From Croceicoccus sp. (lineage in GTDB: Bacteria; Pseudomonadota; Alphaproteobacteria; Sphingomonadales; Sphingomonadaceae): a DNA stretch of 64,000 nucleotides. This document shows, in pieces, positions 5,993-37,333 of this stretch. The stretch is taken from contig NZMY01000014.1 in NCBI GenBank assembly GCA_002694745.1, forward strand, positions 124,001 to 188,000. The letters run 5' to 3'. Under the pieces are notes generated by a model. It saw nothing but the letters and a program-made list of their open reading frames with translations, ran no database searches and was not told the origin of the DNA. Position numbers and translations under genes: made by a program. Numbering within the stretch: position 1 is the first letter of the stretch; each line of letters starts with the position of its first letter.

Positions 5993-6894
5993 CACGATGC
6001 TCTCTCGGCCAAGAGCGTGAGTATGGCCAGTCCGACCAGTGTCGCCGCCACCTGCGTCAGCCCGAACATGATCGACATGGCGACGGCGATATTCTCATCG
6101 ATGCCGATCAGGGGCAGGCTGACCATGGCGGCCAGCTCCCGGCTTCCCCAGCCGCCGATGGAAACCGGCATGGCGGCTGCGAGCAGAAGGGCTGGAAACA
6201 CCGCCAGCAACGCAAGCGGGGAAACGAACTCGCCCGCCGAGTGAAGCAGCAGATAGGCGATCGCGGTCGCCGCAACATGTCCCACCAGCGAGAGGCCGAG
6301 AAGCGAGCCCACGAACTTGCCGAGGCTGCGCGTGCTGCCCGCAGCAGGGAGGAAGACATAGAGCGCGACCGACAGCGCGGCAGCCAGCAGCACAGCCATG
6401 ATGGCCAGTCCGTCCGGGACGAGCGATGGCGCGGCAAGCGCGCCGGTGGCAGCCGCCAGCGCCAGTGCCACCAGACCCGCCAACCGGTCCGAAATGCCGA
6501 TATTGACCGCCAGCCTTGTGTCCACGCCATGCTTTCGTATCAGCCAGACCCTGCCCGCATCTCCCAACAACCCGGTCGGCAGCAGCAGATTGGCAAGCGT
6601 GGCGCCGAACGTCATCCGGCAGACAATGAGGGCGAAGAGACCGGCGAAGCCCTGTCCTTGGAAAAGCACGATGAACCGCCACGACAGCAGAACCACGATC
6701 GCAATATGCAGCGCGACGGCTGCCGCGATGGCAGGCACCGAGAATTCCGACATCGCATCCAGCACCTTTGCGGTGTCGATCTGCGAGATGATGATCGCCA
6801 GCAATCCGATGAAGCTGGCGATCTGGACGAGAGGGATGACGGGACTGCGCTTTTTCGGCTGGATGGCGGGATCGGATTGTCGAACCACATTCAT
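5992..6894 (-). CDS. Lysylphosphatidylglycerol synthase TM-region-like (UPF0104/YbhN) membrane protein
   Basis: A 300-residue integral membrane protein with about eight hydrophobic segments. It matches the flippase-like half of MprF, found as stand-alone proteins near glycolipid and hopanoid genes. Diagnostic stretches are MTFGATLANLLLPTGLLGDAGR-type sequence near 95-115 and a GGWGSREL motif near the C-terminus. The preferred start is ATG 6894, behind GGTGAG with good spacing; the frame continues to 6921. It starts a two-gene minus-strand unit with the GT-C-like gene (1-base TGATG overlap), which suggests a role in lipid-linked sugar handling. Direct substrate evidence is lacking. Confidence 0.8.
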   Translation of the reverse strand: MNVVRQSDPAIQPKKRSPVIPLVQIASFIGLLAIIISQIDTAKVLDAMSEFSVPAIAAAVALHIAIVVLLSWRFIVLFQGQGFAGLFALIVCRMTFGATLANLLLPTGLLGDAGRVWLIRKHGVDTRLAVNIGISDRLAGLVALALAAATGALAAPSLVPDGLAIMAVLLAAALSVALYVFLPAAGSTRSLGKFVGSLLGLSLVGHVAATAIAYLLLHSAGEFVSPLALLAVFPALLLAAAMPVSIGGWGSRELAAMVSLPLIGIDENIAVAMSIMFGLTQVAATLVGLAILTLLAERAS

Positions 6895-7055
6895 AGAGCT
6901 CACCGATCCACATGCGTGCAACCCGGGCAGTGCCCGGTGTCCAAATCCGCGGGGCTTAGTCTAGTAGCACGACCCGATTTACAATCCGATAATCAGCATG
7001 TCGCGGGCGGAACCCGCGCGTTGAAACAGGCTTGCGACCGCACCGATGGAACCCG

Positions 7056-8879
7056 TCATTCCACCGTGACGGATTTGGCCAGGTTGCGCGGCTGGTCGAC
7101 GTCGGTGCCCTTGGCCACCGCCACGTGATAGGCGAGGAGCTGGACCGGAACGGCGTAGACCAGAGGCGCGATCAGCGGGTGGACCTTGGGCATTTCGATC
7201 GTGGCGAGACAGCCTTCGCCCGCTTCGGCAAGACCTTCGGCATCGCTGATCAGCACGATCTTGCCGCCGCGCGCGCGAACCTCCTGCATGTTGGACACGG
7301 TCTTTTCGAACAGCGGGCCCGACGGGGCGAGGACGACCACGGGGACAAGATCGTCGATCAGCGCGATGGGGCCGTGCTTCATCTCGCCGCTGGCATAGCC
7401 TTCGGCATGGATATAGCTGATTTCCTTGAGCTTGAGCGCGCCTTCCAGCGCGAGCGGATAATCCGGTCCGCGGCCCATGTAGAGCACGTCGCGCGCGGGC
7501 GCGATCAGATGCGCCATGGCGGCGATGTCCTCGTCATGGTTCAGCGCTTCGTTGAGGCAGGCGGGCGCTTCCAGCAGATGATCGACGATGGCGCGTTCTT
7601 CCGCCTCGCTCAGCCGGCCCTTCTTGACCGCGAAATGCGCGGCGAGCGCGGCCAGTACGGCAAGCTGGCAGGTGAACGCCTTGGTCGAGGCGACGCCGAT
7701 CTCGGGCCCCGCGTGGGTCGGCAGCAACAGGTCTGCCTCACGCGCCATGGAGCTTGTCGGCACGTTGACGACGACCGCGATGGTCTGCCCTGCCTGCTTG
7801 CAATGGCGCAGCGCCGCCAGCGTGTCGGCGGTCTCGCCGCTTTGCGAGATGAACAGCGACAGCCCGCCGGGTTCCAGCACCGGGTCGCGGTAGCGGAATT
7901 CGGAGGCCACATCGATGTCGACGGGCACGCGGGCGAACGTCTCAAACCAGTATTTCGCGACCATGCCGGCGTAGTAGCTCGTCCCGCAGGCGACGATGGT
8001 GACGCGGTCGATGCGGCTGATGTCGAAATCGATCTGCGGCAAAGCGACGGTGCGTTCCAGCTGGCGGATATAGCTGCGCAGGGTCTGCGCCACCACGGTC
8101 GGCTGCTCGAAGATCTCCTTCTGCATGAAGTGGCGGTAATTGCCCTTCTCGATCGCGACGGCGCTGGCGCCCGACTTGACCACGGGGCGTTCGACCGGGT
8201 TACCATCGGCGTCGAAAATCTGCGCACCATCGCGCGTGACGATCGTGAAGTCGCCTTCTTCCAGATAGGTGATATCCTGCGTCAGCGGAGCCAGCGCCAA
8301 GGCGTCGGAGCCGAGAAAGGTCTCACCGTCGCCGAAGCCGACCACCAGCGGAGAGCCCAGCCGCGCGCCGATCAGCATGTCGGGATGCTGGCGAAACGCC
8401 ACAGCCAGCGCGAAGGCGCCGCGCAGCATGGGCAGGACCTCGCGCACCGCTTCCTCTGGCGTCATGCCCTGTTCGATGCGGCTGGACAGCAGATGGACGA
8501 CGACTTCGCTGTCGGTCTCGCTTTCGAACTGGCGGCCCTGCGCGATCAGTTCCTCGCGCAGGGGGCGGAAATTCTCGATGATGCCGTTGTGGACCAGCGC
8601 GACCTCGGCAGTGGCGTGTGGGTGGGCATTCGCCTCGGTCGGCGCGCCATGCGTGGCCCAGCGGGTGTGCGCGATGCCGACATCGCCGGGGGCGGGGCGG
8701 GCCGCGACTTCGCGGGCCAGATTGGCGAGCTTGCCCTCGGCCCGGCGGCGCACCAGCGTATGATCGCTGATGGTGCAAAGCCCCGCGCTGTCATAGCCGC
8801 GATATTCCATGCGGCGCAGCCCGTCGACCAGCCGCTCCGCCACGGGCTCTGCGCCCACGATGCCGATGATACCGCACAT
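7056..8879 (-). CDS. glmS: Glutamine--fructose-6-phosphate aminotransferase (isomerizing)
   Basis: A 607-residue protein of normal GlmS length. It begins MCGIIGIVG, so Cys2 becomes the N-terminal nucleophile of the class II glutamine amidotransferase half. Further glutaminase motifs are RMEYRGYDSAG, HTRWATHG and HNGIIEN. The isomerase half has two SIS domains with CGTSYYAG and SQSGETADT, and the C-terminus ends PRNLAKSVTVE as usual. It makes glucosamine-6-phosphate for peptidoglycan and LPS. It lies downstream of glmU with one small gene between, probably in one transcription unit. No glmS ribozyme is expected in this phylum and none was seen. Confidence 0.98.
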   Translation of the reverse strand: MCGIIGIVGAEPVAERLVDGLRRMEYRGYDSAGLCTISDHTLVRRRAEGKLANLAREVAARPAPGDVGIAHTRWATHGAPTEANAHPHATAEVALVHNGIIENFRPLREELIAQGRQFESETDSEVVVHLLSSRIEQGMTPEEAVREVLPMLRGAFALAVAFRQHPDMLIGARLGSPLVVGFGDGETFLGSDALALAPLTQDITYLEEGDFTIVTRDGAQIFDADGNPVERPVVKSGASAVAIEKGNYRHFMQKEIFEQPTVVAQTLRSYIRQLERTVALPQIDFDISRIDRVTIVACGTSYYAGMVAKYWFETFARVPVDIDVASEFRYRDPVLEPGGLSLFISQSGETADTLAALRHCKQAGQTIAVVVNVPTSSMAREADLLLPTHAGPEIGVASTKAFTCQLAVLAALAAHFAVKKGRLSEAEERAIVDHLLEAPACLNEALNHDEDIAAMAHLIAPARDVLYMGRGPDYPLALEGALKLKEISYIHAEGYASGEMKHGPIALIDDLVPVVVLAPSGPLFEKTVSNMQEVRARGGKIVLISDAEGLAEAGEGCLATIEMPKVHPLIAPLVYAVPVQLLAYHVAVAKGTDVDQPRNLAKSVTVE

Positions 8880-26619: not shown

Positions 26620-26693
26620 TGCCCCGTCGTCTAATGGTAAGACTACGGACTCTGACTCCGTCAATTGAGGTTCGAATCCTCACGGGGCATCCA
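26620..26693 (+). tRNA. tRNA-Gln (anticodon CUG)
   Basis: A 74-base cloverleaf with encoded CCA. Acceptor arms are TGCCCCG (26620-26626) and CGGGGCA (26683-26689). The anticodon stem ACGGA/TCCGT flanks loop CTCTGAC, giving anticodon CTG. The T arm is GAGG-TTCGAAT-CCTC. The discriminator base is T. The last 16 bases (26678-26693) are the attachment core of the neighbouring integrated element, which therefore rebuilds the tRNA 3' end on insertion. Confidence 0.95.
26678..26693 (+). other. attL core, 16 bp identical to attR
   Basis: CCTCACGGGGCATCCA forms the 3' end of tRNA-Gln and recurs exactly at 37318-37333 in the same orientation. Flanking bases differ on both sides. An adjacent tyrosine integrase makes it the left attachment site of the 10.6 kb element. 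Confidence 0.92.
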
Positions 26694-26747
26694 CTGTGCA
26701 CTCATTTCCCTATACTCCCTAAGGGTTTAGCGTGATGCGGTGTCTAA

Positions 26748-27791
26748 CTATTCGACGGGGTTAGACACTTCCTTCCCGTATGCTTTGGCCATTGCGCTAT
26801 CTGCGCGGGCCGCATTTCCTGAGTCGCCAGCGTATCGCCGGAACTCGCGAACAGTCTTGTGGCCGGTGATCGCCATGCCTTCTTCATCGGTGCAGCCACA
26901 GTCCACCAAACGGCGTGCTGCGGCCTTTCGCAGGCCATGCGCAGAGCAGTGCGGAAGGTCTGCCTTGATGCAGGCGCGCTTCACCATGTTGTAAAAGCCT
27001 TTGGCGGTGAAGGTGGCCCCGTCCTTGTTCTCCATCAGGAAAACATCACCCAGCGGGCCAGCGTCCAAAGCCTCGCGCAGTGGTGCCACCACGGGCACAT
27101 CGACAGAATTTGAGGTCTTGCTTTGCTTAAGCCTGATCCGATCATCCGCGATGGCCTTGTGCGTCAGGAAGCGAACGTCCGCGCTGCGCTGTGCGCCATA
27201 GAGTAACAACGCAAAAGCAAGGCGGGGCTTGGTGCCCAGCGGGTGCTTTGCTTCGAACTGGGCAAGTTCCTCTTCGCTCCAGCGGTGATAGCCATCACCC
27301 TCGGCTTTCGGTGGTCGGGTGTCTTTCACCGGGTCGAACGTGCCAGGCACGATGCGTTCGCGACGGGCCACGATGAAAAGCTGTGCGAGTAGCTTGCGAA
27401 GCCGAGCGGCGGCATGGGGTTTATGCCGCCATTTGTTCATGAGACTTTGAATGTGGCCAGCGTCGAAGCGTGCAATCGGGTCATCACCGAACGTCTTGCG
27501 GAATCGCTCTAACACGCCGCGATAGACGTTTTGCGTGGCGGGCTTCAGATCCTGAAAAGCAGTGTCCGAATAATAGCGGACGATCACGTCTGACACGCTG
27601 CCAGGTCGAATTCGACCAGCACCCACTGACGGCTTCTCAGCCTCTAGGAAGGCAGCATATTCCCGCTCAAATTCCTTCGTTCCGAAAGGCGAATGGAAAT
27701 AGGCCGGGGGATAGCCCTTGCGCCGGAAACGATAGCGCCGCTTGCCGTGGCGATCATTGAAGCTGGAGACGTAGGGGAATGCCTTTGTCAT
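26748..27791 (-). CDS. int: Tyrosine recombinase / phage-type integrase
   Basis: A 347-residue integrase. An arm-binding-like N-terminus (RHGKRRYRFRRKG) and a SAM-like core-binding domain (about 65-145) precede the catalytic domain. Visible catalytic residues are Arg202 (GAQRSADV), a beta-hairpin Lys near 223-225, His285 and Arg288 (HGLR), His311 (ITGHKT) and the nucleophile Tyr320 (EFRRYAG). ATG 27791 overlaps the stop of the 66-aa gene (ATGA); an in-frame start 4 codons upstream is less likely. It should excise and integrate the element at tRNA-Gln. Its 3' end points at the attachment site. Confidence 0.95.
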   Translation of the reverse strand: MTKAFPYVSSFNDRHGKRRYRFRRKGYPPAYFHSPFGTKEFEREYAAFLEAEKPSVGAGRIRPGSVSDVIVRYYSDTAFQDLKPATQNVYRGVLERFRKTFGDDPIARFDAGHIQSLMNKWRHKPHAAARLRKLLAQLFIVARRERIVPGTFDPVKDTRPPKAEGDGYHRWSEEELAQFEAKHPLGTKPRLAFALLLYGAQRSADVRFLTHKAIADDRIRLKQSKTSNSVDVPVVAPLREALDAGPLGDVFLMENKDGATFTAKGFYNMVKRACIKADLPHCSAHGLRKAAARRLVDCGCTDEEGMAITGHKTVREFRRYAGDSGNAARADSAMAKAYGKEVSNPVE

Positions 27792-27988
27792 GAAGCGGCC
27801 CAATCATCGAAACGGCTGTCGAAGTCATCGCGCCCAGTGGAAGCCCCAGCTTCCGGCTGCGGGGTCATAGTGAAGGTAAAGCCGCCCATAGGATCGACGC
27901 GGCCCTTCAGAACGACGCCATGGGCCGCGACGGCAGTTGCCATGCGGTCTAGGTCGTCTTTCGATATCAAGGCGCGTCGTGATGCCAT
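27788..27988 (-). CDS. Small element protein between portal and integrase
   Basis: A 66-residue protein, predicted soluble, with no recognised family. The ATG overlaps the portal stop (TAATG) and its stop overlaps the integrase ATG, so it is translated in line from the capsid genes to int. A role as excision helper or virion-associated factor could be imagined from its position, but nothing in the sequence shows it. Confidence 0.7.
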   Translation of the reverse strand: MASRRALISKDDLDRMATAVAAHGVVLKGRVDPMGGFTFTMTPQPEAGASTGRDDFDSRFDDWAAS

Positions 27989-29172
27989 TACGCTGCTTGT
28001 TCTCCCTCATTTGACGGGGGATCACTACGGACGCTTTCGCTGCGCGGATTCCAGCCTTCGACCTGCCGAACCTCGTCGGGATCGAGCACGCCGGTTTCCA
28101 AAGCGATCTTATGCGCGTTCCACCGAGTTTCGGGATCGCCGCGCAGGAAGCCGGACAGATCGAGTTCCAGTTCATAAGGCCCGTTCGTCGGGAACAGCGA
28201 GCGGGCAAACTCTGCCTCGATCTTCCTCGCCCATGGCGCCAGGCAGAACGTCGCGAACCACAGGCCCGCTTGGCTGGCATTCGTGAAAGTGTTGTTTTCG
28301 TATGCCTGCACGATCGGCGGTGGCACCTGAAACAGGCGGAAAATCTCGATCACGCCAAAGCGCCGGGTTTCCAGCAGTTCAGCGTCTTCAGGCGAGATTT
28401 GCGCAGGCTTCCACGTCAGCCCGCCATCCAGCACCAAGGTTTTGCCAACATTACCGGCACCAGCATGTCGCTCAGCGAATTGTGCCCGGAGCCTTTCGGC
28501 AATTTCCTGCGTCATCACGCCGTCCGACTGGATCACGCCGGAAGGGTTTGCACCATTGGCGAGGAACGTGCGTGCATGGCGATTCGCCAGATCCACCCCG
28601 CTGACGGTATCAGCCGATCGCGCTAGTCGTGACTTGCCGATCTTGCCGTCGTCGGTGCGGTCGCGAAGGTGCAGCACCTCGCCCTCCAGCAGGCGGCGCA
28701 CGCGCCCTTTGCCGTCGCCTACGTCATAGGCCAAACGCCCGCTTGCAAGCTCCTGCACGGCCACGTTCGACCAGGGCACATAGACAAGCCCGGAAGGCTG
28801 CCCGTTGCCGCTGCGTTCAATCTCGATAAGCCCGTTGCCGGTGAGCAGGGCCGATGCGATCCAGTGCTCCACGAGATCCGGCCAGGTCATCGCCGAATTT
28901 GGCCCGCCGCGCACCAGCCGAGATAGCGGGTGTGCGGGGTGCTCTAGCCGGGTCAGGCCGTCGCGCTTGTAAACAAGCGCCGGAACGTAAGCGAGTGCCG
29001 TGCTGATAGCTGTGGTGCAGGCAAGCACGGTGGACAGGTTCTCTGCGGCCCTCGCGCTCATACCAGCGTAATAACCGCCGGGGCTGAGCGCCTGCCAGCT
29101 AGGGTCCAGCGGTGAAAGGTCGCTGCGTCGTTCATAGCCCGCCAGAGCCGCAAGACGGGTCATTAGGCCCAT
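27988..29172 (-). CDS. HK97-family phage portal protein
   Basis: A 394-residue protein with typical portal landmarks: SARAAENLSTVLACTTAISTALAYVPALVYKRD near the start, HPLSRLVRGGPN, the WP-LVEHWIASALLTGNGLIEIERSGNG stretch, YDV-VLHLRDRTDDG and the C-terminal FQVPPPIVQAYENNTFTNASQAGLWF. Portals form the dodecameric DNA gate of the capsid. ATG 29172 lies inside the protease 3' end; ATG 29163 (TAATG) is an alternative. It is about normal length for HK97-type portals and looks intact. Confidence 0.95.
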   Translation of the reverse strand: MGLMTRLAALAGYERRSDLSPLDPSWQALSPGGYYAGMSARAAENLSTVLACTTAISTALAYVPALVYKRDGLTRLEHPAHPLSRLVRGGPNSAMTWPDLVEHWIASALLTGNGLIEIERSGNGQPSGLVYVPWSNVAVQELASGRLAYDVGDGKGRVRRLLEGEVLHLRDRTDDGKIGKSRLARSADTVSGVDLANRHARTFLANGANPSGVIQSDGVMTQEIAERLRAQFAERHAGAGNVGKTLVLDGGLTWKPAQISPEDAELLETRRFGVIEIFRLFQVPPPIVQAYENNTFTNASQAGLWFATFCLAPWARKIEAEFARSLFPTNGPYELELDLSGFLRGDPETRWNAHKIALETGVLDPDEVRQVEGWNPRSESVRSDPPSNEGEQAA

Positions 29173-29723
29173 TGCTTTACCTCCGCCAATCGCAGTGCCC
29201 TCGCACGCCTCTGTGCGCCGTCGTGATGCGCCAGCGCCCTAAGTGCTATTTCGGTGCCCTCATAAGCGGGCCAGGCAGAGACAACGCTGATCTCGCGCAG
29301 CCCGATCGAGCGAAGGGTGCGGGTGCGCCCATTCCAACTTTCGCCGCCTTCCGGCACGACAAAGCCAAAGGACATGCCGCCAAGGTCGCCACGTTCGGCC
29401 AGCGCCAGAACGTCGCGCCCTGCCTGCGTGTCGGGCACCTGCAGTTCGAATGCCAGACCCCGGCTATCTTCGCGCAGCGTAAGCGTGCCGCTCTTGGTCC
29501 GCCCCAGCACCTTCGCCGGGTCGTGGTCCAAGAGCGCCAGCACATCACCGGCTAGTGCGGCGCGGAAGGCACCCGGTTCGATCGTTTCCACGAAAGATCC
29601 AAGGTTCGCTTCCGCGCCGAACGTGGCAGCATACCCACCGATCTTGCGCTGCTTGGAGTCAGCACGGATCTCATTGAAGGCACGCCGCTCGATAGCGGGG
29701 CGGGAGTGAAGCGCCCCGGCCAT
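29163..29723 (-). CDS. HK97-family prohead protease
   Basis: A 186-residue serine protease of the capsid maturation family. The N-terminal ERRAFNEIRADSKQRKIGGYAATFG strand pattern leads to the catalytic His region DHDPAKVLGRTKSGTL (about 79-94) and the Ser region GDLGGMSFGFV (about 125-135). ISVVSAWPAYEGTEIALR closes the fold. It should cleave the capsid protein's N-terminal scaffolding part. It overlaps the spike gene by one base (TGATG) and the portal by 10 bases. Confidence 0.95.
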   Translation of the reverse strand: MAGALHSRPAIERRAFNEIRADSKQRKIGGYAATFGAEANLGSFVETIEPGAFRAALAGDVLALLDHDPAKVLGRTKSGTLTLREDSRGLAFELQVPDTQAGRDVLALAERGDLGGMSFGFVVPEGGESWNGRTRTLRSIGLREISVVSAWPAYEGTEIALRALAHHDGAQRRARALRLAEVKQWA

Positions 29724-29989
29724 CAGTAGAGCGCCACCATGTCGGCAGCCGTCGTTCCGGTTGTGCGAACGTATTCTGTCCGCACCGGGAGGAAACAGCC
29801 GCTCGGCACGTTCTTGAACGTCACGTCGGAACTGGCGTTGGACGCGCGCAACTTCACGTCGCCACCCGTTCCGACGTAGAGGGCCTTGGCCACCCCATCG
29901 GGCAGGGCATTCGTGTTATGCGTGGTCACAGCCGCGTGATTACGGGCCGGATCCGATGCGCTGTCGAAGGTGTGGCCAAAGGGGTCCAT
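29723..29989 (-). CDS. Spike-base protein, RCAP_Rcc01079-like (GTA head-spike base)
   Basis: An 88-residue protein with the pattern I recall for the spike-base family of alphaproteobacterial gene transfer agents and related phages: an N-terminal DP-F region, NTNALPDGVAKALYVGTGGDVKLR, a VTFKNVPSGCFLPVRTEYVRTTGTT strand pair and a final DMVALY. In GTA particles it anchors fibres on the capsid. It sits exactly between capsid and protease genes, 1 base after the capsid stop, and overlaps the protease start. Assignment rests on memory of the family pattern, not on a search. Confidence 0.75.
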   Translation of the reverse strand: MDPFGHTFDSASDPARNHAAVTTHNTNALPDGVAKALYVGTGGDVKLRASNASSDVTFKNVPSGCFLPVRTEYVRTTGTTAADMVALY

Positions 29990-29990
29990 A

Positions 29991-31205
29991 TTAGCCCACC
30001 GTCACGCCGGATGCCGCCACGAACGATGCAGGGCGGCGGATACCGAAGTCCACCGAAGCCATGGCGCGGATCAAGATATTGCCCTTGCTGTAGGCGGTTT
30101 CCGCGTAGGGGTTCACCAGCACGTCAAGCTGGCTCCAGACACCGACCAGGAAGTCGCGCCAATCGCCATAAATCAAGGCGTGCTCGTTAGTGCCCGCGCC
30201 GAGATTGGACGGGGCCTGATTGGTAAAGTTCACCGGCTCGCCATGGAAGGTTTCCGCGATCGTGATGGCGTGGCCCTCATTGTCGCGCAGCTTCATGGCA
30301 TCGGACTTGATGCCGTTAGTGGCGAGGAAGGCGCGGGCTGCATCCACGTTGGCGAGGTCTGCCGTAGCGATCATGTTAGCAGCGGTCGTGAACAGATCCG
30401 TTGCGAAAGGCTCGGTCGGCACGTCACCGTCGTTCAGAATGCCCTGCGGTTCGGCTCCGGTGCCGCTGCCATTGACGGCGGCGCGGTCGATTTCCAAAGC
30501 GATATTTCGCGCCAACATCGAGCGCAGCAGGCGTTCAACGTCAGGGCTGGCCTGCATCACCATCTGGCGGCTGAACTCGCTGATTGCGCCGACGTGGTGC
30601 GGGGTCAGGGTCAGGCTGTCGAACGCGGCGTCATCAGTCGAAAGCGCTTCATTCTCATTCACCCAGCCAACCGCGGGGCTGTCGGTTTCGCGCGGGATCA
30701 CCACGTCACCGGTCAGGCCGGTCAGGACAGTTGCGCCCATGCGGTTCATGACGGTCGCGTTGGTCAGGGCCGAAACGAACAGATCGGGGCGAAAGTCATC
30801 GCTGATAATGCCGCCGCTGTTCGCAGTCGTCTGCACGCGCTTTTCGAATACCTCAGTGGGCACATAGAAACCCTGTGCAGGCTTGCCGGCGCGCTTGGGC
30901 AGTTCCGCCTGCAATTCGATTTCGCGCCCCGCATCCACCGGCATACCGGCCTTGTGGGCAATCATCTTTGCGATGCTGAACTTGCTGGCTTCGGCGCGGA
31001 ACTGAATGTCGCCGCCGCCATGAAGGGGCCTGCCCGCTTCGGTGCGCTCGGCTGCCTCGATCTTCTTGGCCCGGTCAATCTTGCAGTCGAGCGAGCGAAG
31101 TTCGTTTTCCGCCGTCTCGAAGGCGGTGGCATCATCATTTGTGTGGGCAGTGGTCATGCGGTCCACCAGGCCCGCCCGCTGCTCTAGCAGTTCCGCGATC
31201 TTCAT
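29991..31205 (-). CDS. HK97-family major capsid protein
   Basis: A 404-residue protein. Residues 1-65 form a charged coiled-coil (scaffolding delta domain), followed by the HK97 fold: KAGMPVDAGREIELQ, GGIISDDFRPDLF, the VVIPRETDSPAVGWVNENEA E-loop, LARNIALEIDRAAVNGSGTG-EPQGILN and the C-terminal DFLVGVWSQLDVLVNP-ETAYSKGNILIRAMASVDFGIRRPASF. ATG 31205 has GAGG 8-9 bases upstream. The frame stays open to a TTG at 31367 and the extra 54 residues look like a signal peptide, which is odd (see findings). The shell should carry the satellite genome. Confidence 0.96.
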   Translation of the reverse strand: MKIAELLEQRAGLVDRMTTAHTNDDATAFETAENELRSLDCKIDRAKKIEAAERTEAGRPLHGGGDIQFRAEASKFSIAKMIAHKAGMPVDAGREIELQAELPKRAGKPAQGFYVPTEVFEKRVQTTANSGGIISDDFRPDLFVSALTNATVMNRMGATVLTGLTGDVVIPRETDSPAVGWVNENEALSTDDAAFDSLTLTPHHVGAISEFSRQMVMQASPDVERLLRSMLARNIALEIDRAAVNGSGTGAEPQGILNDGDVPTEPFATDLFTTAANMIATADLANVDAARAFLATNGIKSDAMKLRDNEGHAITIAETFHGEPVNFTNQAPSNLGAGTNEHALIYGDWRDFLVGVWSQLDVLVNPYAETAYSKGNILIRAMASVDFGIRRPASFVAASGVTVG

Positions 31206-31223
31206 ATTCCATTCCTCTATCTG

Positions 31224-31244
31224 GCCGGGGCACGATGCCCCGGC
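31224..31244 (-). promoter_or_regulatory. Perfect hairpin just upstream of the capsid ribosome site
   Basis: Nine-base arms GCCGGGGCA and TGCCCCGGC with a 3-base loop end 19 bases before the capsid ATG. A second small hairpin (ACGTC-4-GACGT) follows at 31259-31272. Without a T tract this may be an mRNA processing or stabilising element, or an attenuator, that sets capsid expression apart from the upstream genes. Confidence 0.55.
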
Positions 31245-31354
31245 ACTGAGCAAGCCAACGTCTCCCGACGTGAGCGAAGTGAGCGGCTGCGCGGTGGCAA
31301 GCGATGCGGTCAGCACCGTTGCAGCCAGCGCAGCCGCAATCTGGTAAAGGGCGC

Positions 31355-31645
31355 TTAGGCGGCGCAAAGGAAGCCGCTCTCCCAGTCGCCGCGCTTGAAG
31401 CTAATCAATTCCCAAGAATCGCTGTTAAGATAGCGCGTGGCGCTAAACAGCTTTTTGTCCTGCCAAACATCAACCGTTTCACGTTCGCCAGCCTGCACCC
31501 AGTGCATCGCGCCGAAGGTGCCAAGGTTGCGGGTGCGCGTCTGCATCCCGCGTTGCGGTTGCTCGGCCAAGCAATCGGCGGTCACGTTCAACGCATGGGC
31601 TATGATAGCCCGCGCAACGTCCGCCTTCTTTTCACCGTTTGCCAT
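31355..31645 (-). CDS. Small element protein upstream of capsid gene
   Basis: A 96-residue protein from ATG 31645, which has GGGAG 8 bases upstream. An N-terminal helical part (ADVARAIIAHALNVTADCLAEQ) is followed by a strand-rich part (TFGAMHWVQAGERETVDVWQDKKLF). No family is recognised. The frame opens at 31831 with an ATGA overlap to the regulator gene, so a 158-residue product is possible, but the extra residues look non-coding. It may be a DNA-binding or capsid-related factor; position alone is the clue. Confidence 0.65.
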   Translation of the reverse strand: MANGEKKADVARAIIAHALNVTADCLAEQPQRGMQTRTRNLGTFGAMHWVQAGERETVDVWQDKKLFSATRYLNSDSWELISFKRGDWESGFLCAA

Positions 31646-31827
31646 TATGCGAACTCCCTTCGCGCTGTTGAGGGGTTCGACCTGAAACAGCGCTGGGCCT
31701 GTTCCTTCGCTAGCGCTGAGCCTAGCGCGCCGGGTCGAACGGCGGATTTCATAGCTCCCCATCCCGCGCGCGGGTTTTCCCATATCGGCAGACGCGCCGG
31801 GACCGCTCAGGGGGGAACGGGTTTCGG

Positions 31828-32367
31828 TCATTCGGTATCAACTTTGTAGGCTTCAGCCATGACCGCGCGCGGATCGTGGCCAAGCCGCTTAACGACACGG
31901 TCAAAAACCTCGTCCACTTCAAGAACGATGAAGCTCGTGGATCTAAGTCTAGAGCGGATGGTGGGGATCACATCGGTCTTCAGCTCCCAGAGGATTTCAA
32001 TCGATTTATCGCCAGACACGCAAAGCAGGGTCCGCGCAGCCATGCCGAAATTTAAAAACGGAAGGCTCGGCCACCTCTCAGGATTACCGTAAACAGGCCC
32101 CTCGCCTACATGTGCGAAATGCTGCGCAGCCTTGATCGCGTTCGCAGCAGAAAGCCCCGTTTCGATCAGTTCTTTTGCGATGGCGATTTCCATCACGGTG
32201 AAGAAGGTAAAGCGGCGATGCGCACCTGATACGCCACCACCTTCAATCGGTGCGCCCGGCTTCCCGATCAACAGGTCACGCTTGAGCCAGCTCTGCAGGG
32301 TATGGTTGGGCAAACAAGTTGCATCCAACACTTGGCCTGTCGTGAATCGGTCTTCAAGGATGTGCAT
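31828..32367 (-). CDS. MerR-like helix-turn-helix regulator of the element
   Basis: A 179-residue protein from ATG 32367 (GGAA 7 bases upstream; the frame opens at 32451). The N-terminus has a MerR-type winged-helix pattern, FTTGQVLDATCLPNHTLQSWLKRDLL, then HRRFTFFTVMEIAIAKELIETGLSAANAIKAAQHF. The rest may be an effector or dimer domain. It heads the leftward late-type block (96-aa, capsid, spike, protease, portal, int). Two copies of a CCAAnTTGGCn4GCCAA motif lie directly upstream, so it may control itself and this block, like AlpA/Stl-type switches in satellites. That function is inferred. Confidence 0.72.
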   Translation of the reverse strand: MHILEDRFTTGQVLDATCLPNHTLQSWLKRDLLIGKPGAPIEGGGVSGAHRRFTFFTVMEIAIAKELIETGLSAANAIKAAQHFAHVGEGPVYGNPERWPSLPFLNFGMAARTLLCVSGDKSIEILWELKTDVIPTIRSRLRSTSFIVLEVDEVFDRVVKRLGHDPRAVMAEAYKVDTE

Positions 32368-32375
32368 ATCATGTT

Positions 32376-32432
32376 CCAAATTGGCGTCTGCCAACCTAGC
32401 TAGTCCTATGTAGCCAAGTTGGCAAGCGCCAA
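32376..32432 (-). promoter_or_regulatory. Duplicated candidate operator CCAAnTTGGCn4GCCAA
   Basis: Two 19-base copies lie at 32376-32394 and 32414-32432, start-to-start distance 38 bases. Each contains the palindrome TTGGC-4-GCCAA, and the leading CCAA makes further dyads (GCCAA-g-TTGGC at 32413-32423). They sit 9 to 65 bases upstream of the MerR-like gene's ATG, where an autoregulator or helper-derived antirepressor system would act. Confidence 0.65.
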
Positions 32433-32469
32433 TTCGTTCATCCAGCTTCACTGACGGTGGATAAGTCTT

Positions 32470-32766
32470 TCAGCAGTCCAGCCCATGCGTGCCGCCTGGG
32501 TCGCTGATTTCACAGCCAGGACCACTCGGATGCCAAGCATACGTTAGGCCGCCGCAACTGATTTCATCTTCGGTGCATTGTCCGGCTGGATCGTCGTCCT
32601 CTAGATCCGGGTCGCCGTCGATCGTATCTAGCAGTTCCACCAGCGCCTCCACCGCTGCCGCGATTTCCTCGCGATCCACATAACCTTGGATCAGGAAGCG
32701 AGATTGCGCGGTCGCCGGTTCGGGAAAGAACGCCACGTAGGGCGCGATCTTGATAGCCTCGCCCAT
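32470..32766 (-). CDS. Small acidic element protein, unknown
   Basis: A 98-residue acidic protein. ATG 32766 has GGAGG about 9 bases upstream and lies one base after the stop of the preceding gene. Its middle (REEIAAAVEALVELLDTIDGDPDLEDDD) is a helix running into an Asp/Glu tail, and the C-terminus holds three Cys. I recall similar short proteins in sphingomonad prophages but cannot assign a function. Co-translated with the 96-aa gene upstream. Confidence 0.65.
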   Translation of the reverse strand: MGEAIKIAPYVAFFPEPATAQSRFLIQGYVDREEIAAAVEALVELLDTIDGDPDLEDDDPAGQCTEDEISCGGLTYAWHPSGPGCEISDPGGTHGLDC

Positions 32767-32767
32767 A

Positions 32768-33058
32768 TCATAGGCCCTCCGCATGAAAGGCTGCCACGGC
32801 AGCGAGGTAGCCAATGCCTGCGAAGGCTTCGGCCAAAATTTCCGGATTCAGATCTTCCAATGCGCTTTCGCCGTCATTGTTTTTGCGGTGCCCCATCTCC
32901 AGCGTTAGCGCGAGCGAGCGGATCATCGGCAGGATTTCATGCACCGCATCAATGCCGGTCGAGCCGAGCGGCGAACTGGTCGAAAGCCGGAAATTATAGA
33001 GTGCTTCGAATGCGGGATTGATATGGGCGGATTCCGCCCTAGGGGTAGTGGTAGCCAT
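32768..33058 (-). CDS. Small element protein, unknown
   Basis: A 96-residue helical protein. ATG 33058 has GAGG 8-9 bases upstream. No membrane segment or motif is recognised. It opens a two-gene leftward unit with the 98-aa gene, and its start faces that of the plus-strand RHH gene across 88 bases that contain a palindrome at 33068-33091. Confidence 0.65.
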   Translation of the reverse strand: MATTTPRAESAHINPAFEALYNFRLSTSSPLGSTGIDAVHEILPMIRSLALTLEMGHRKNNDGESALEDLNPEILAEAFAGIGYLAAVAAFHAEGL

Positions 33059-33067
33059 TATGCGTTC

Positions 33068-33091
33068 CTCTAAAACGTGTTTTGGTTAGAG
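33068..33091. promoter_or_regulatory. Palindrome in the divergent RHH / 96-aa promoter region
   Basis: Arms CTCTAAAAC (33068-33076) and GTTTT-gg-TTAGAG (33079-33091) form a dyad with a 2-base bulge, 9 bases upstream of the 96-aa gene's start. It could be bound by the divergently encoded RHH protein. Confidence 0.45.
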
Positions 33092-33146
33092 CTGGGCGGT
33101 TGTTGGTAGCTTCCGCTCGGCTCGCTTTCGTGTTAGCGCCAAAGAT

Positions 33147-33347
33147 ATGGCAAAGTCAAATCGCGTTTACACGAAAAAGCAACGCCCTGAAGCGGCCGGC
33201 ACGATGGTTGGTGTCCGCCTTCAGCCTGACGATCTTGAATTGCTCGATCTTTGGATTGCGGCGCAAGACGAGCATATGACACGGCCCGAAGCAATGAGGC
33301 GCGTTTTGCGCATGGTTGCTCTACGAACTCGTAGCTTAAACCCATAG
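33147..33347 (+). CDS. Ribbon-helix-helix type small DNA-binding protein
   Basis: A 66-residue basic protein and the only plus-strand gene in the element. After a basic tail (MAKSNRVYTKKQRPEA) it reads MVGVRLQPDDLELLDLWIAAQDEHMTRPEAMRRVLRM. This is the strand-helix-helix layout of Arc/MetJ/CopG-type regulators with an RPEA turn (R-P-E-A before the second helix), common in short sphingomonad proteins. It probably represses the divergent 96-/98-aa unit or itself. The 3' end overlaps the terminase gene head-on by 12 bases. Confidence 0.72.
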   Translation: MAKSNRVYTKKQRPEAAGTMVGVRLQPDDLELLDLWIAAQDEHMTRPEAMRRVLRMVALRTRSLNP

Positions 33348-34946
33348 CAGCCCCGCCCCCTCATATGTCTTCGGCCCGCTGTCACGCGCTGCAATGCCAC
33401 AGGCCATGATAAGGGCGGCCATGCCGTCGATGCGGTCAATCGAGCGTGCTTTATTGGGTTTTCGGTTGCCCGCAGCGTCGGTGTCAAAAAGCAAGTTCGA
33501 AGCGTTCCAGCGCAGCACCGGGTGCATGGCGTGGCGCAACTCGCCCTCTAGCAACAGCGCCTCGAAAGCGTCGATCGCTGGCCCCATGCTGACATAACCC
33601 TGTCCCCATGGCTCCAGCGGTAACTTCACGCCCTCGCCGTCGAGAATGACGGTCAAATCCTCGATCGCGTGCCGGTCATAGGCCACGGCGCGCAGATCAT
33701 AAGTTGCCGCCACCTTGGCCAGCCGCTTGGCGATAAACCGCTTGTCGATGGCCTTGCCGGGTGTCGCCTCGATGAAGCCCTGCTTCTCCCAAGTGCGATA
33801 GGGCACCCGGTCGATTTCCTCTTTCCGTTCGATCCCTGCTTTTGGACACCAGAAAAACGGCAGCACCGCCCCACTTTCAGGGAAAAATAGCACAAGCGCG
33901 GACAGGTCGCGGACGGCTGAGAGATCCAGCCCCGCATAGCATTTCTTCCCCTTCAGGCTCGCAAGGTCGATCGCTTCGCCGCAGGCATCCCATTCTGCCG
34001 GATTGATCGCTTTCGGCTCAGCATCGACTCGCATATTGCAGTGCAGATTCAGGAACGCCGGTTCGAAAGTCGGCATCCGCTGCGCCCGTTCGGCTTCGTC
34101 GGCAATCTGTTCCGCAGAAACGAACGTGCCAAGCGCAGGATTGGCCAGCGGCCAGTTGTCGGGGTCGTAGGGGTCGGCATCTTCCGGCACCGCATAGACA
34201 GCGCCGTGAAAGCTGCGATCTTCAATCTCGCCCGTCTCGATCCGCCGGGAATAGTCCACCAGTTCGCTCATAATATTGAGCGGGTTCGGGGATTGGGTGC
34301 CGATCGCCAGCATTAAAGGCTCGGCGCGCTTGCCCATGGAGGTGCGCAGCACGTCGAACAATTCGCGTTTCTTCCATTGGGCCAGCTCGTCGCAGACAAT
34401 GAAGCTGGAAGCAGTGCCGTGCACCGCCGCGCCATCGCTGGCCAATGCCCGATAGCGGCTGCCCGTCTCGTCATCCTCGATCGTTTTATAGAAACGTTGC
34501 ACATTCAGCCTGGATGCCATCCACGGCACAGCCAGGATAACCGCCTCCATCTCGGCAAAGATCAATCCAGCCTGTTCCTTCGTCGCCGCCGCAGAGTAGC
34601 ACTCGCCCCTCTGCTCAGCTTCCGGCCCACACAGATGGCAGAGGCATAGCATGGCAGCCAGGACGGTCTTGCCTTGCCCGCGCGCAACGGAAAGCAAGCC
34701 AGTGCGCACCCGCCGCTTCCCTTCGACATCGGTGGCATAGACTGCCTCGATCCATTCCCGCTGGAACGGCAGCAGCTTAACATTTTCGCCAGCGCCAAAG
34801 CCCTTTGTAATCGGCAGGCTTTCGATGAATGCGATAACCCGCTCCGCACGGGAAAGCCCCTCGGCTTCCCACGGGTGCGCGGCATTGATTTCGACAAGCG
34901 CCGCCGCTTTCCGTTGGCGCGATGCACCCGGTCCCCTAGCGCCCAT
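33336..34946 (-). CDS. terL: Phage terminase large subunit
   Basis: A 536-residue terminase with both domains. The ATPase has LPFQREWI (Q motif region), Walker A SVARGQGKT near residues 87-95, Walker B FIVCDELAQW near 183-192 and coupling motif AIGTQSPN. The nuclease domain holds acidic residues in GLDLSAVRDLSALVL and near AYDRHAIED and DGMAALIMA. It should cut and pump element DNA into the capsid. It overlaps the HNH gene by 11 bases. No small terminase is recognised in the element. Confidence 0.95.
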   Translation of the reverse strand: MGARGPGASRQRKAAALVEINAAHPWEAEGLSRAERVIAFIESLPITKGFGAGENVKLLPFQREWIEAVYATDVEGKRRVRTGLLSVARGQGKTVLAAMLCLCHLCGPEAEQRGECYSAAATKEQAGLIFAEMEAVILAVPWMASRLNVQRFYKTIEDDETGSRYRALASDGAAVHGTASSFIVCDELAQWKKRELFDVLRTSMGKRAEPLMLAIGTQSPNPLNIMSELVDYSRRIETGEIEDRSFHGAVYAVPEDADPYDPDNWPLANPALGTFVSAEQIADEAERAQRMPTFEPAFLNLHCNMRVDAEPKAINPAEWDACGEAIDLASLKGKKCYAGLDLSAVRDLSALVLFFPESGAVLPFFWCPKAGIERKEEIDRVPYRTWEKQGFIEATPGKAIDKRFIAKRLAKVAATYDLRAVAYDRHAIEDLTVILDGEGVKLPLEPWGQGYVSMGPAIDAFEALLLEGELRHAMHPVLRWNASNLLFDTDAAGNRKPNKARSIDRIDGMAALIMACGIAARDSGPKTYEGAGLLWV

Positions 34947-35442
34947 GTTCAGTTTTCCGCGCCGTGTTCTGAACTAACTCAAGATTTGGGTACGGGCGCG
35001 GTCCTATGTCGTCAGCTTCCAGCGATTTATTTATTGATGCGCCACCCAGAACACCACCTCTGCCCCTACCTTGTACAGCATCACAATGGTTATCCAGAGA
35101 ACAAGAAGCTTTAGCCAAGTCAGCATTCGGTGCTTGAACATGCCAAGGGTGCTCCGGGTCAATAGGATTGCCCTGAAGATCGCAACCCTTCCGAGGTTTG
35201 TTAGTCTTAGCACGCCCCGCTTCTGAACCCCTAGCGGTCTTTCTCGAATGGCAGGCAGGGCAATAGCTGGCCAATCCATCATGGCCGGGGAACGGATGCC
35301 CGCCCTCGCTGATCGGGTGAACGTGGTCGACGGTATTCGCCGTCACCAGCCTTGGCGCGCAGCCCCGGCAGAATGGCTCAAGCTGGAGGTGCTGCTTTCG
35401 CAGGCGCAGCCACCGTGCCGTTGAGTAGGGCCAATCAGCCAT
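34936..35442 (-). CDS. HNH endonuclease of the packaging module
   Basis: A 168-residue protein from ATG 35442 (GGAGG 7 bases upstream). The HNH core is CRGCAPRLVTANTVDHVHPISEGG (His of DH as catalytic residue, Cys pairs for zinc), then GLASYCPACHSRKTARG. HK97-type cos phages pair such an HNH protein with the terminase for cohesive-end cleavage, and the gene directly precedes terL here. Residues after about 75 look unstructured. It overlaps both neighbours. Confidence 0.9.
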   Translation of the reverse strand: MADWPYSTARWLRLRKQHLQLEPFCRGCAPRLVTANTVDHVHPISEGGHPFPGHDGLASYCPACHSRKTARGSEAGRAKTNKPRKGCDLQGNPIDPEHPWHVQAPNADLAKASCSLDNHCDAVQGRGRGGVLGGASINKSLEADDIGPRPYPNLELVQNTARKTEHGR

Positions 35443-35665
35443 GATCGTCCTCCCGTTCCGGCCCAAGCATGGCGATGATGCCCCAATGCTTCAGGCATCC
35501 CGCCAGCTTCACCGCTCTTGCCCTTGGCACGCCGCCGGTCCGCAGGAAGCGTTCAATTTCCCTTGCCTGTAACGGACGGGTGAAATGATCGAGCACGGCA
35601 ATTGCACCCTCGCGCTGCGCTGGCGGCATCGCCTCGATTTGTTCGATTAGCGGGGTCTTGGTCAT
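35435..35665 (-). CDS. Small protein between AAA ATPase and HNH genes
   Basis: A 76-residue helical protein with a pattern resembling a small winged-helix (QAREIERFLRTGGVPRARAVKLAGCLKHWGII). It overlaps the ATPase stop (ATGA) and the HNH start by 8 bases. Position before HNH-terL would fit a small terminase or DNA-binding adaptor, but it is short for a TerS and no family is recognised. Confidence 0.65.
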   Translation of the reverse strand: MTKTPLIEQIEAMPPAQREGAIAVLDHFTRPLQAREIERFLRTGGVPRARAVKLAGCLKHWGIIAMLGPEREDDHG

Positions 35666-36816
35666 GGCTTAGCCCTCCTGCGTGCGGATTGCGCAGGGCT
35701 TTGACCTGTCCAGCCGTCGTCATCGTCTCGAACGTCGAACGGGTCTTTTCTATACCCTGTCCCATCTGTCCCATTGTCCCAATCAAGGGGTGTATCGGCA
35801 TCATTTGGGACGTTGGGACAGTTGGGACAGCTATATAGGCCCCGGCCTTCTTTCTCGATTTCACCGGAATGCGCCATGCGCGTCAGCGTCTTGCGAACAG
35901 CCTCGTAAGACTTACCCAAAAGGTCGGAAACTTCTCGTGCATTCAATGCCTTGCCTGCATCCTGCAGCACATCGCGGATCTCTTGGCGCTCGTCGGTCTT
36001 GGCGAAGTCTGCCGCCGCGCCAATCACCTGCCATGTCCCAATGTCCCGATCGAAGTCGAAAGCTGTCTCAATTTCCTCTATGTCTCTGCCGCGCCCGTAT
36101 AGGACAGTGCGACCTGTCCCAATGTCCCGTTTGAGCACGAGAACGGTGTCAGCAGCGCCGGTAATCCCACGGGTGCCCGATACGGAATCGAACGGATCGT
36201 CAGCTTCCATCTTGCGCGTGTGATGCAAGGGCACGATCGCGATGCCCAGCTTTCCAGCAAGTTCCTGCAAGCCGGTTAGCGTGCGATAGTCGGCATCATA
36301 TGCGCTGTCCTTGCCGTTGGCGCTGTCCCGCACCTTCGCCAGCACGTCCACAAAGACGAGCACTGGGTTCTTGACAGCATTGGCCCACGCCTCGATTTCC
36401 TGCACGGCACCGTCTGCAAGGCTCGGCCAGGACGTGCAGAGCGTCAGGCGTTCGGGAGGCTCTCCGATGCCCATCTTGCTGATACGGCTGCGCAGGCGGC
36501 GGTTATTGTCTTCCAGCGCCAGATAGAGCACGTCGCCATGGCTACATGGCACTGTGCCGAATGCCGGTTTGCCGGACGCAACAGCGATCGCAATGTTTAG
36601 CGCCATCCAGCTTTTGCCGATCTTGGGGGCACCTGCCAGCACGGTCAGGCCCTCGGCAATATAGCCGTTCACCACATAGCGGATCGGCTCGAACTGCATT
36701 GCCATCAAGGCAGATGCAGTGATGCCCGATCGGTATGCAGGCAGCTTTTCACCGGAGTATTCGCAGGCCATCTGATCCAGCATCGCATCCATGCCTTCAA
36801 GGGGTTCGAAAGTCAT
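35662..36816 (-). CDS. RepA-like AAA/RecA-fold ATPase (replicative helicase candidate)
   Basis: A 384-residue protein of the AAA_25/RepA type. Walker A is AGAPKIGKSW (61-70), followed by VLYLALEDNNRRLRSRI and the hydrophobic Walker B strand VLVFVDVLAKV (about 150). PLHHTRK and GTRGITGAADTVLVL are the later RecA motifs. A winged-helix-like C-terminal part (AREVSDLLGKSYEAVRKTLTRM) may bind DNA. It likely drives replication of the excised element. Unusually, its 3' third carries repeated TGTCCCA motifs that encode a CPNCPNVPN tail. It overlaps both neighbours by ATGA. Confidence 0.82.
   Translation of the reverse strand: MTFEPLEGMDAMLDQMACEYSGEKLPAYRSGITASALMAMQFEPIRYVVNGYIAEGLTVLAGAPKIGKSWMALNIAIAVASGKPAFGTVPCSHGDVLYLALEDNNRRLRSRISKMGIGEPPERLTLCTSWPSLADGAVQEIEAWANAVKNPVLVFVDVLAKVRDSANGKDSAYDADYRTLTGLQELAGKLGIAIVPLHHTRKMEADDPFDSVSGTRGITGAADTVLVLKRDIGTGRTVLYGRGRDIEEIETAFDFDRDIGTWQVIGAAADFAKTDERQEIRDVLQDAGKALNAREVSDLLGKSYEAVRKTLTRMAHSGEIEKEGRGLYSCPNCPNVPNDADTPLDWDNGTDGTGYRKDPFDVRDDDDGWTGQSPAQSARRRAKP
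35758..35829. repeat. Iteron-like inverted array of six TGTCCC motifs
   Basis: Three direct TGTCCCA at 35758, 35767 and 35775 face three inverted copies (TGGGAC-A/G) at 35806, 35814 and 35823. Spacing is mirror-symmetric: 9,8 then 8,9. The arms match at about 22 of 26 bases across a 24-base spacer. The array lies inside the RepA-like gene's 3' end. It is a candidate replication origin or protein-binding array; an RNA hairpin is the alternative. Confidence 0.6.
36034..36129. repeat. Two direct copies of TGTCCCAATGTCCCG in the rep-like gene
   Basis: The exact 15-mer occurs at 36034-36048 and 36115-36129. The second copy is entered by a hairpin GGACAG (36102-36107) / CTGTCC (36114-36119). Together with the array at 35758-35829 this gives ten TGTCCC-type sites within 370 bases. 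Confidence 0.6.
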
Positions 36817-37097
36817 TTCGCTTCCCCTTCCAGATGTTCGGCGTCGAAAGCGGCTTGCACGCTATTCCGGCAGAACCGCAGCGCGATCGTCAGGCGTGCT
36901 AACGGCACCTCGGCAAAGACGAACTGGCCCGCCATCTCGTGGGCCGCGCAGGCCAAGTCATAGGCAAGGTCGGACGCCGCTTTCCATTTAAGTGCGCTGG
37001 CGTAATCCCGCGCCTTCAGCAGGGCGATGCGCGTCTTTAGTTCTTCACCCTCGGCATTGGGCACGAACTCGCGGACGTGGAATGACAAATCGCTCAT
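36813..37097 (-). CDS. Small element protein, unknown
   Basis: A 94-residue helical, mildly acidic protein (LKARDYASALKWKAASDLAYDLACAAHEMAG). No motif is recognised. ATG 37097 overlaps the stop of the preceding gene (ATGA), and its own stop overlaps the ATPase ATG the same way, so it is part of a tightly coupled replication-type operon. Confidence 0.65.
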   Translation of the reverse strand: MSDLSFHVREFVPNAEGEELKTRIALLKARDYASALKWKAASDLAYDLACAAHEMAGQFVFAEVPLARLTIALRFCRNSVQAAFDAEHLEGEAK

Positions 37098-37315
37098 TGC
37101 GAAGCCCCCCCGTCCTGAGTAGGCTGCAAATGCTTTACCGAACTCCTGGTAGCATCTGCCCTCGCGCCGGTTGCCGCCGGTGCGGGGGCTTTCACTTTTC
37201 GTCGCCTTGGCGGTGCCGAAAGGTTAGACAGCCGGAATGTGTAACCCGCAGGAAACCGTGGCGATAATGTGCCGGTTAGACGGTCTAAGGGGTTTGATTC
37301 GTCTTGTTTGTTCAT
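37094..37315 (-). CDS. First gene of the leftward replication operon, unknown
   Basis: A 73-residue basic protein (MNKQDESNPLDRL...RRRKVKAPAPAATGA). ATG 37315 lies 3 bases inside the attR core; the frame runs across attR to 37330. No family is recognised; the basic, Ala/Pro-rich middle is likely disordered. Because it starts right at the attachment site, its promoter must lie outside the element when integrated and near the integrase end when excised. Confidence 0.55.
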   Translation of the reverse strand: MNKQDESNPLDRLTGTLSPRFPAGYTFRLSNLSAPPRRRKVKAPAPAATGARADATRSSVKHLQPTQDGGASQ

Positions 37316-37317
37316 GC

Positions 37318-37333
37318 CCTCACGGGGCATCCA
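37318..37333 (+). other. attR core, 16 bp identical to the tRNA-Gln 3' end
   Basis: CCTCACGGGGCATCCA repeats the last 16 bases of tRNA-Gln (26678-26693) exactly and in the same orientation; no tRNA body precedes it here. Host sequence resumes to its right. Confidence 0.92.

Follow-up and report, generated by a model that had tools for sequence, protein, structure and literature searches.

The window analysed here, a 64,000-nucleotide stretch of Croceicoccus sp. DNA (contig NZMY01000014.1, positions 124,001 to 188,000), carries at its positions 26678-37333 an intact element, made up of 10,640 bp and a further 16-bp repeat copy, which is integrated in a tRNA-Gln(CTG) gene. On the basis of its genes and its relatives, we consider it highly probable that this element is an intact phage satellite working like a capsid-forming phage-inducible chromosomal island (cf-PICI), with a head of its own and a borrowed tail. 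An earlier reading of the letters, made before any database search (the sequence-only reading), had described a tail-less, capsid-encoding, satellite-like integrated element in a sphingomonad, and this description is supported. Of its identification as a cf-PICI, the mode of working stands; the element itself, judged from its sequence, is a variant of the cf-PICIs rather than a plain member, because neither head-tail connectors, a tested defining feature of that group, nor a small terminase subunit (TerS) could be recognised and because its major capsid protein (MCP) stands apart in the tree from the MCPs of three cf-PICI-type records.

All of the cargo listed in the sequence-only reading (portal, protease, capsid, large terminase subunit (TerL), HNH endonuclease and RepA-like ATPase) gave family matches among the 17 open reading frames (ORFs) of the element, which were compared with Pfam and PHROGs, and an intact tyrosine integrase (PF00589, 1.3e-12) does lie beside the repeat. 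The element is a phage satellite in the wide sense, being integrated, having its own integrase and att sites and lacking a full set of virion genes. It has in common with the cf-PICIs its own MCP, protease and portal, the HNH and TerL genes and the lack of a full tail gene set, and departs from them in that the connectors Ad1 and Hc1 were not found. Tail and lysis families had no match among the 17 ORFs in Pfam or PHROGs, bar a PHROG 'tail fiber' label on an 88-aa ORF, and the supposed lack of tail, lysis and connector genes holds in that Pfam, PHROGs, connector hidden Markov models (HMMs) and hhalign recognised none. Several small ORFs gave zero matches to any family searched, so that some of them may be structural.

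The impression that no gene is broken was borne out for the seven genes that were compared with those of six relatives. The nonsynonymous divergence (dN, 0.13-0.55) was well below the synonymous divergence (dS, 0.8-3.4) in all computable pairs (three pairs were not computable, and dS above 1 is saturated, so the direction alone is safe), and no stop codons were present in the aligned parts. In addition, the relatives are constant in size. Among 78 loci (74 from a contig scan, the window, L042, L043 and L049), 49 could be delimited, with sizes of 9,540-11,307 bp (mean 10,507, SD 431), at tRNAs for 14 amino acids; related elements thus sit at other tRNAs, a point that the sequence-only reading had thought worth checking. 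Because delimiting relied on tRNA-anchored repeats, the tRNA location of all delimited loci is by construction; the constancy of size is not, because 8-16 kb was accepted. The other 29 loci stand outside the size count, several being cut by contig ends and some having long flanks, and all counts are of loci, not independent events, as some are near copies (for example, L099 and L103). A larger prophage with tail genes in close relatives, which would have spoken for a remnant, was sought and not found among the 49 delimited loci, with one exception in content (L076, discussed below).

A circular relative also exists. The metagenome contig L155 (10,191 bp) has a 24-bp terminal repeat, giving a circle of 10,167 bp in which the portal is in frame across the joint and the att core occurs once. 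Its gene order (g17, g16, RepA-like ATPase, HNH, TerL, g9, MCP, protease, portal, g2, integrase) is that of the recognised genes in the window's element, the RepA-like ATPase being identified by eye, with no BLAST match to the window's ATPase; Ad1 and Hc1 were not found in it. A longer terminal repeat (127 bp) is present in L009, but this is a distant relative.

Integration site and gene map

Copies of the 16-mer CCTCACGGGGCATCCA begin at 26678 and at 37318, the first being the 3' 16 nt of tRNA-Gln, so the exact direct repeats noted in the sequence-only reading were borne out. In the 4.02-Mb genome this 16-mer has two forward occurrences and no reversed one (backward control, 0 and 0). The GC content is 0.600 within the element, 0.658 in the left flank and 0.653 in the right flank. 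Coordinates, strands and contents are as follows, with homologue counts over 161 loci, window included:

26620..26693, +, tRNA-Gln(CTG), integration site; 3' 16 nt form one att copy
26678..26693, no strand, att repeat copy 1, CCTCACGGGGCATCCA; exactly two genome copies
26748..27803, -, tyrosine integrase; 65-80% identity in several relatives
27788..27988, -, g2, 66 aa, between portal and integrase; homologues in 52/161 loci
27988..29172, -, portal protein; PF04860, 5e-89
29163..29723, -, S78 prohead protease; PF04586, 4.8e-40
29723..29989, -, g5, 88 aa, head-spike base, RcGTA Rcc01079 family; NF048002, 1e-25; PDB 6tb9_E3, 3.9e-4
29991..31205, -, HK97-type MCP; PF05065, 3.8e-35; TIGR01554
31355..31831, -, g7; homologues in 25/161 loci
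31828..32451, -, g8, putative MerR-type regulator, model nearest CvkR; homologues in 72/161 loci
32470..32814, -, g9; homologues in 49/161 loci
32768..33058, -, g10; homologues in 2/161 loci
33147..33347, +, ribbon-helix-helix-like regulator; PF01402, 0.0052, below cut-off; 38/161 loci
33336..34946, -, TerL; PF20441, 2e-40; PF03354; phrog_9, 7.8e-137
34936..35466, -, HNH endonuclease; phrog_2323, 4.3e-23; PF01844
35435..35665, -, g14, small helical protein, winged-helix-like layout; homologues in 25/161 loci
35662..36816, -, RepA-type AAA_25 ATPase; PF13481, 2.9e-33
36813..37097, -, g16; homologues in 9/161 loci
37094..37330, -, g17, start overlapping the distal att copy; homologues in 23/161 loci
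37318..37333, no strand, att repeat copy 2; exactly two genome copies

The start of the MCP was placed at 31205 by its relatives, the ORF itself opening at 31367, and the ribbon-helix-helix-like gene is the only one of the element on the + strand. The RepA-type ATPase likely serves the element's own replication. The predicted structure of g8 (mean pLDDT 70) has the MerR regulator CvkR as its best PDB match (E 2.2e-4), and from this model g8 may be the repressor of the island; the predicted fold of g14 had no PDB match at E<=0.001 despite its winged-helix-like layout.

The empty tRNA-Gln site that the sequence-only reading had proposed to look for was found in part. The tRNA-Gln gene is present in 14/14 genus genomes, and in five of the six same-genus genomes viewed it has no adjoining element genes; in the sixth (G399), a relative sits at the end of another contig and may or may not belong at the tRNA. 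The right flank is not conserved, and a clean case for an empty attB in the genus is only partly supported. In a same-genus genome (G321; L225, 9678-17051), ~7.4 kb of other DNA lies at the same tRNA-Gln before the right flank, which suggests that this site may be an integration hot spot.

Spread and layout of the relatives

Sampling of 397 genomes from the family gave 13 (own genome included) with an MCP at >=48% identity, one of which has two copies. The 74 loci of the contig scan come from Alpha-, Beta- and Gammaproteobacteria plus a few metagenome-assembled genomes (MAGs) of other labels, and it is across these three classes that the MCP-protease-portal set recurs. From IMG/VR, 80 of 313 relatives were kept, of which 77 are on contigs of <=15 kb and the others on contigs of 15.1, 16.4 and 22.4 kb; these sizes are supporting evidence only, as proviruses are trimmed and some contigs are fragments. 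The element thus appears to belong to a wide family of capsid-making satellites, constant in size, that extends over Alpha-, Beta- and Gammaproteobacteria and has many members in environmental bacteria.

All 49 delimited loci have the MCP and the portal, with the MCP upstream of the portal on the same strand; integrase was found in 43, clustered protease in 42, TerL in 40, HNH in 37 and helicase/primase in 27. Across the 161 loci, 102 have the layout of the window, with TerL before the MCP (layout A), and 22 have TerL after the portal (layout B); 32 are without a TerL match and 5 without an MCP or portal match. Two types of TerL (~80-84% or ~46% identical to the window's) occur beside similar portals (L043, L122 and L138 versus L057, L060 and L065), which hints that modules have been swapped. 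An Acinetobacter schindleri plasmid (NZ_CP044475.1, 45348-51228; L242, 12001-17881) also bears a head module of layout B, with genes for HNH, TerL, a connector and head closure; insertion sequences and a cyclase gene of a cyclic-oligonucleotide-based antiphage signalling system (CBASS) lie a few kb away.

Neck, small terminase and head spike

The relatives encode Ad1 (phrog_40, 2e-15), Hc1 (phrog_25, 4e-12) and TerS; Ad1 was found in 76, Hc1 in 38 and clade B TerS in 16 of the 161 loci, many of which are cut by contig ends. In the element, HMMs built from the relatives found neither Ad1 nor Hc1 (best E 1.4 and 4.6), the best match to the clade B TerS profile was not significant (E 0.024, 8 bits, in the frame of g2), and hhalign gave probabilities of <=5.5% for connectors or TerS among the element's ORFs. 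The portal and integrase matches of the window are separated by 187 bp, occupied by g2. Among 30 loci in which the integrase adjoins the portal, Ad1 was present in 0/16 with a gap of 152-424 bp and in 10/14 with a gap of 440-1,297 bp. This pattern, together with the short gap of the window, indicates that a connector at the portal-integrase junction is absent, not just unrecognised. As substitute connectors, g9 and g14 were dropped, since both were also found in loci bearing connectors. Judged by their models, g14 and g8 are possible candidates for a divergent, DNA-binding terminase subunit; for g8 a terminase role is not favoured, since its model is nearest CvkR.

In an unrooted portal tree of 152 rows made by a quick method, the window falls within a set of 14 rows (starred branch, 95). 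Ad1 is absent in all eight rows of this set with an adjacent integrase; both connectors are present in L043, which has its integrase at the other end, and in L134 and L142, which have no adjacent integrase match, and Ad1 is present in L059 and L137. On the whole tree, the connector label needs at least nine changes, six of them forced by starred branches. Because the tree is unrooted, it does not separate gain from loss of connectors; repeated loss is likelier, because connectors also occur in layout B. The series from both connectors through the adaptor only to none amounts to a natural experiment on the smallest self-made neck with which a head can still take up a foreign tail.

The PHROG 'tail fiber' label of g5 was overruled, as g5 scores above the cut-off of the NCBIfam model of this spike base, Rcc01079 (NF048002), and aligns to PDB 6tb9_E3 across residues 1-82, both identifying it as a head-spike base of the type found in the gene transfer agent (GTA) RcGTA. 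Its gene lies between the MCP and the protease and was found in just 5 of the 161 loci. The RcGTA spike fibre has an N-terminus with repeated leucine-glycine. No spike fibre gene was recognised in the element, and a motif scan for such an N-terminus in the element, the window, L001, L061, L130, L131 and contig C17 printed none. According to excerpts of PMC7296036, Rcc01079 of RcGTA forms pentamers at capsid vertices that hold a fibre. Among INPHARED records with a spike-base homologue, 72 of 77 are Flavobacterium phages. The host has a second spike-base gene on another contig (L236, G000:C17, 5407-10293). Large ORFs of 618 and 924 aa come after it, amid sugar-transferase-like genes, the neighbours being named from their translations; this gene and a large ORF could be a spike base/fibre pair outside a phage cluster.

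Proposed cycle, alternatives and known systems

In the cycle that we propose, the entry of a tailed phage would lead to excision of the element, which would then replicate with its own RepA-type ATPase and build a small HK97-type head from its MCP, protease and portal. One unit-length genome of ~10.5 kb would be cut and packaged, probably in a cos-type manner given HNH and TerL, and the heads would be joined to helper tails. Neck proteins, and perhaps terminase specificity too, would probably be taken from the helper, because no adaptor, stopper or small terminase is recognisable, and the head-spike base may sit on the vertices of the head, where it could aid attachment. We tentatively suggest that the element might represent a very small (10.5 kb) satellite lineage without a neck of its own, with a GTA-type spike base and with adaptor, stopper and tail from the helper. 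The HK97 head has T=7 symmetry. When its genome of 39,732 bp is scaled by volume, the estimated contents are ~11 kb (T=3) and ~17 kb (T=4), and on this estimate a T=3 head is predicted for the element, which would be among the smallest self-encoded satellite heads.

Several points weigh against an intact satellite of this kind. A helper, induction, a particle and transfer are so far predictions from sequence, and the missing TerS and connectors could mean that the element is defective. No further match to portal (PF04860), TerL_nuclease or PhageMin_Tail was found in the own genome, so that it holds no resident helper of these kinds, and any helper would have to enter from outside or belong to a different type; a GTA as a resident source of tails was rejected, as GTA_TIM was not found in this genome. 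A terminal repeat as short as the 24 bp of L155 can arise as an artefact of assembly. One of the 49 delimited relatives, the 9.5-kb L076 (Sphingomonadales MAG), encodes a tape-measure-like protein of 592 aa (6290-8068; phrog_8462, 1.7e-51) and has no TerL or HNH match. For the relatives, 150 of the 244 representatives of non-core ORFs were searched for tail genes, with 25 of 89 matched PHROG families among the matches listed, so some relatives may carry tail genes.

The head genes without tail, TerS or connectors, the lack of another HK97-type portal or TerL in the own genome and the tape-measure-like ORF of L076 would also be expected if the element were what is left of a larger, tailed prophage after loss of the genes for tail and lysis. 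Such an origin is very unlikely, given that all 49 delimited relatives are of 9.5-11.3 kb, the compared genes are intact and under purifying selection, the att copies bracket the element exactly, a circular relative exists, no tailed phage has a close MCP, portal or TerL among the INPHARED matches listed, and the MCP-protease-portal order is the reverse of that in the phages viewed. No tail or connector genes are recognised in a lineage that looks mobile (L155), and the element has a head-spike base and several small proteins without assigned function; it might therefore form a self-sufficient particle, a virus with a minimal tail or none, in which the spike base and these small proteins perform attachment and DNA delivery. 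We regard this as highly improbable, because DNA delivery from an HK97-type head with a portal normally requires a neck and a tail, the spike base is confined to so few loci, and many relatives retain Ad1 and Hc1, which are tail-joining proteins.

The RcGTA-type spike base, the match of the MCP profile to the RcGTA MCP in PDB (1.7e-6) and a weak PADLOC match of the winged-helix end of the RepA-type ATPase to AbiEi models (best 1.3e-5) would accord with a domesticated, GTA-like or defensive capsid element that benefits its host. We give this very little credence: the element has its own integrase and tRNA att sites, its distribution is patchy (13/397 family genomes) and at many tRNAs, GTA_TIM is lacking from the own genome, and, among 10 small or unknown ORFs scanned against the PADLOC models, the remaining 9 had no match at 0.01; a defence function was accordingly set aside. 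The criteria of a GTA point the same way, as no tail genes were recognised and an integration module is present. A plain cf-PICI already in published catalogues is an explanation that overlaps with the variant satellite favoured here and differs from it in novelty, not in mechanism. For it speak the head order, HNH, TerL, RepA-family helicase and integrase, as in E. coli SCU-125, the portal tree described below, and the three radiations of cf-PICI capsids reported in part of PMC11389934, of which the element could be one. It is nevertheless unlikely in view of the element's size, its lack of recognised connectors and TerS and the split of its MCP from the three references; moreover, the groups in which cf-PICIs are 'primarily found' include no Alphaproteobacteria in passages of PMC10803314, which give an average size of 14 kb, versus 10.5 kb here.

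INPHARED matches were all at <60% identity, the best-ranked at 33% (MCP and portal) and 37.5% (TerL), and the portal precedes the capsid gene(s) in eight of nine phage records viewed; in the ninth, VP882, the labels do not allow a reading. No description of this satellite family was found in the open-licence literature searched for such satellites or hosts, and a prior listing is possible. The sequence-only reading held that cf-PICIs have the element's content; this needs correction, as cf-PICIs carry head-tail connectors, both terminase subunits and HNH according to excerpts of PMC10690885, and neither connectors nor TerS are recognisable in the element. Three records were typed as cf-PICIs by gene content, none being so named in the record (E. 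coli SCU-125, vB_KppS-Ant and Pasteurella Pmp8); the prototype, EcCIEDL933, was compared by partial description only. Like the element, the three have an integrase, TerL, MCP-protease-portal in order and no full tail set; SCU-125 has a RepA-family helicase where the others have a primase, and HNH is present in two of three. The order in Pmp8 and SCU-125 is MCP-protease-portal-closure-adaptor-HNH-TerS-TerL, with which vB_KppS-Ant agrees where annotated, its HNH being unlabelled, and each has one tail-labelled gene (tail terminator, tail assembly protein or tape measure). In contrast, the element is ~10.5 kb rather than 15-16.5 kb, uses a tRNA 3'-end site, has HNH-TerL upstream of the MCP, carries its integrase on the portal side, and has no recognised TerS, Hc1 or Ad1 and no tail-labelled gene. 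The comparison of capsid and portal that the sequence-only reading had proposed gave a divided answer in trees made by a quick method (L102 left out, and one more row under the length limit for the portal): the portals of layouts A and B lie with the cf-PICI-type records against five phages (starred branch, 95), whereas the MCP family is split from those records (starred branch, 99) on a long branch with a long-branch warning.

The Streptomyces satellites MulchRoom and MiniFlayer, compared by description only, also have their own capsid and packaging genes, and unlike the element have virulent helpers and terminal repeats; they were reported without significant homology to known satellites (excerpts of PMC10690885). 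In part of PMC13230959, the Vibrio cf-PISP TG54 (15.8 kb) and PISP TG93 (11.1 kb) are likewise capsid-encoding satellites without tail genes, and the recombinase of TG54 between portal and head-tail adapter may be likened to the arrangement here; both differ in being episomal, TG54 in having adapter and closure genes and TG93 in its capsid family (PF03864). Published cf-PICI capsids number 900 as cited in PMC13230959. RcGTA differs by its adaptor, stopper and tail genes (extracts of PMC7296036) and by packaging host DNA fragments (extracts of PMC9690577), whereas the element has an integrase and att sites. However, RcGTA shares with it the Rcc01079 homologue, and both the MCP and the portal of the element match RcGTA chains in PDB; the spike base ties a satellite to gene transfer agents.

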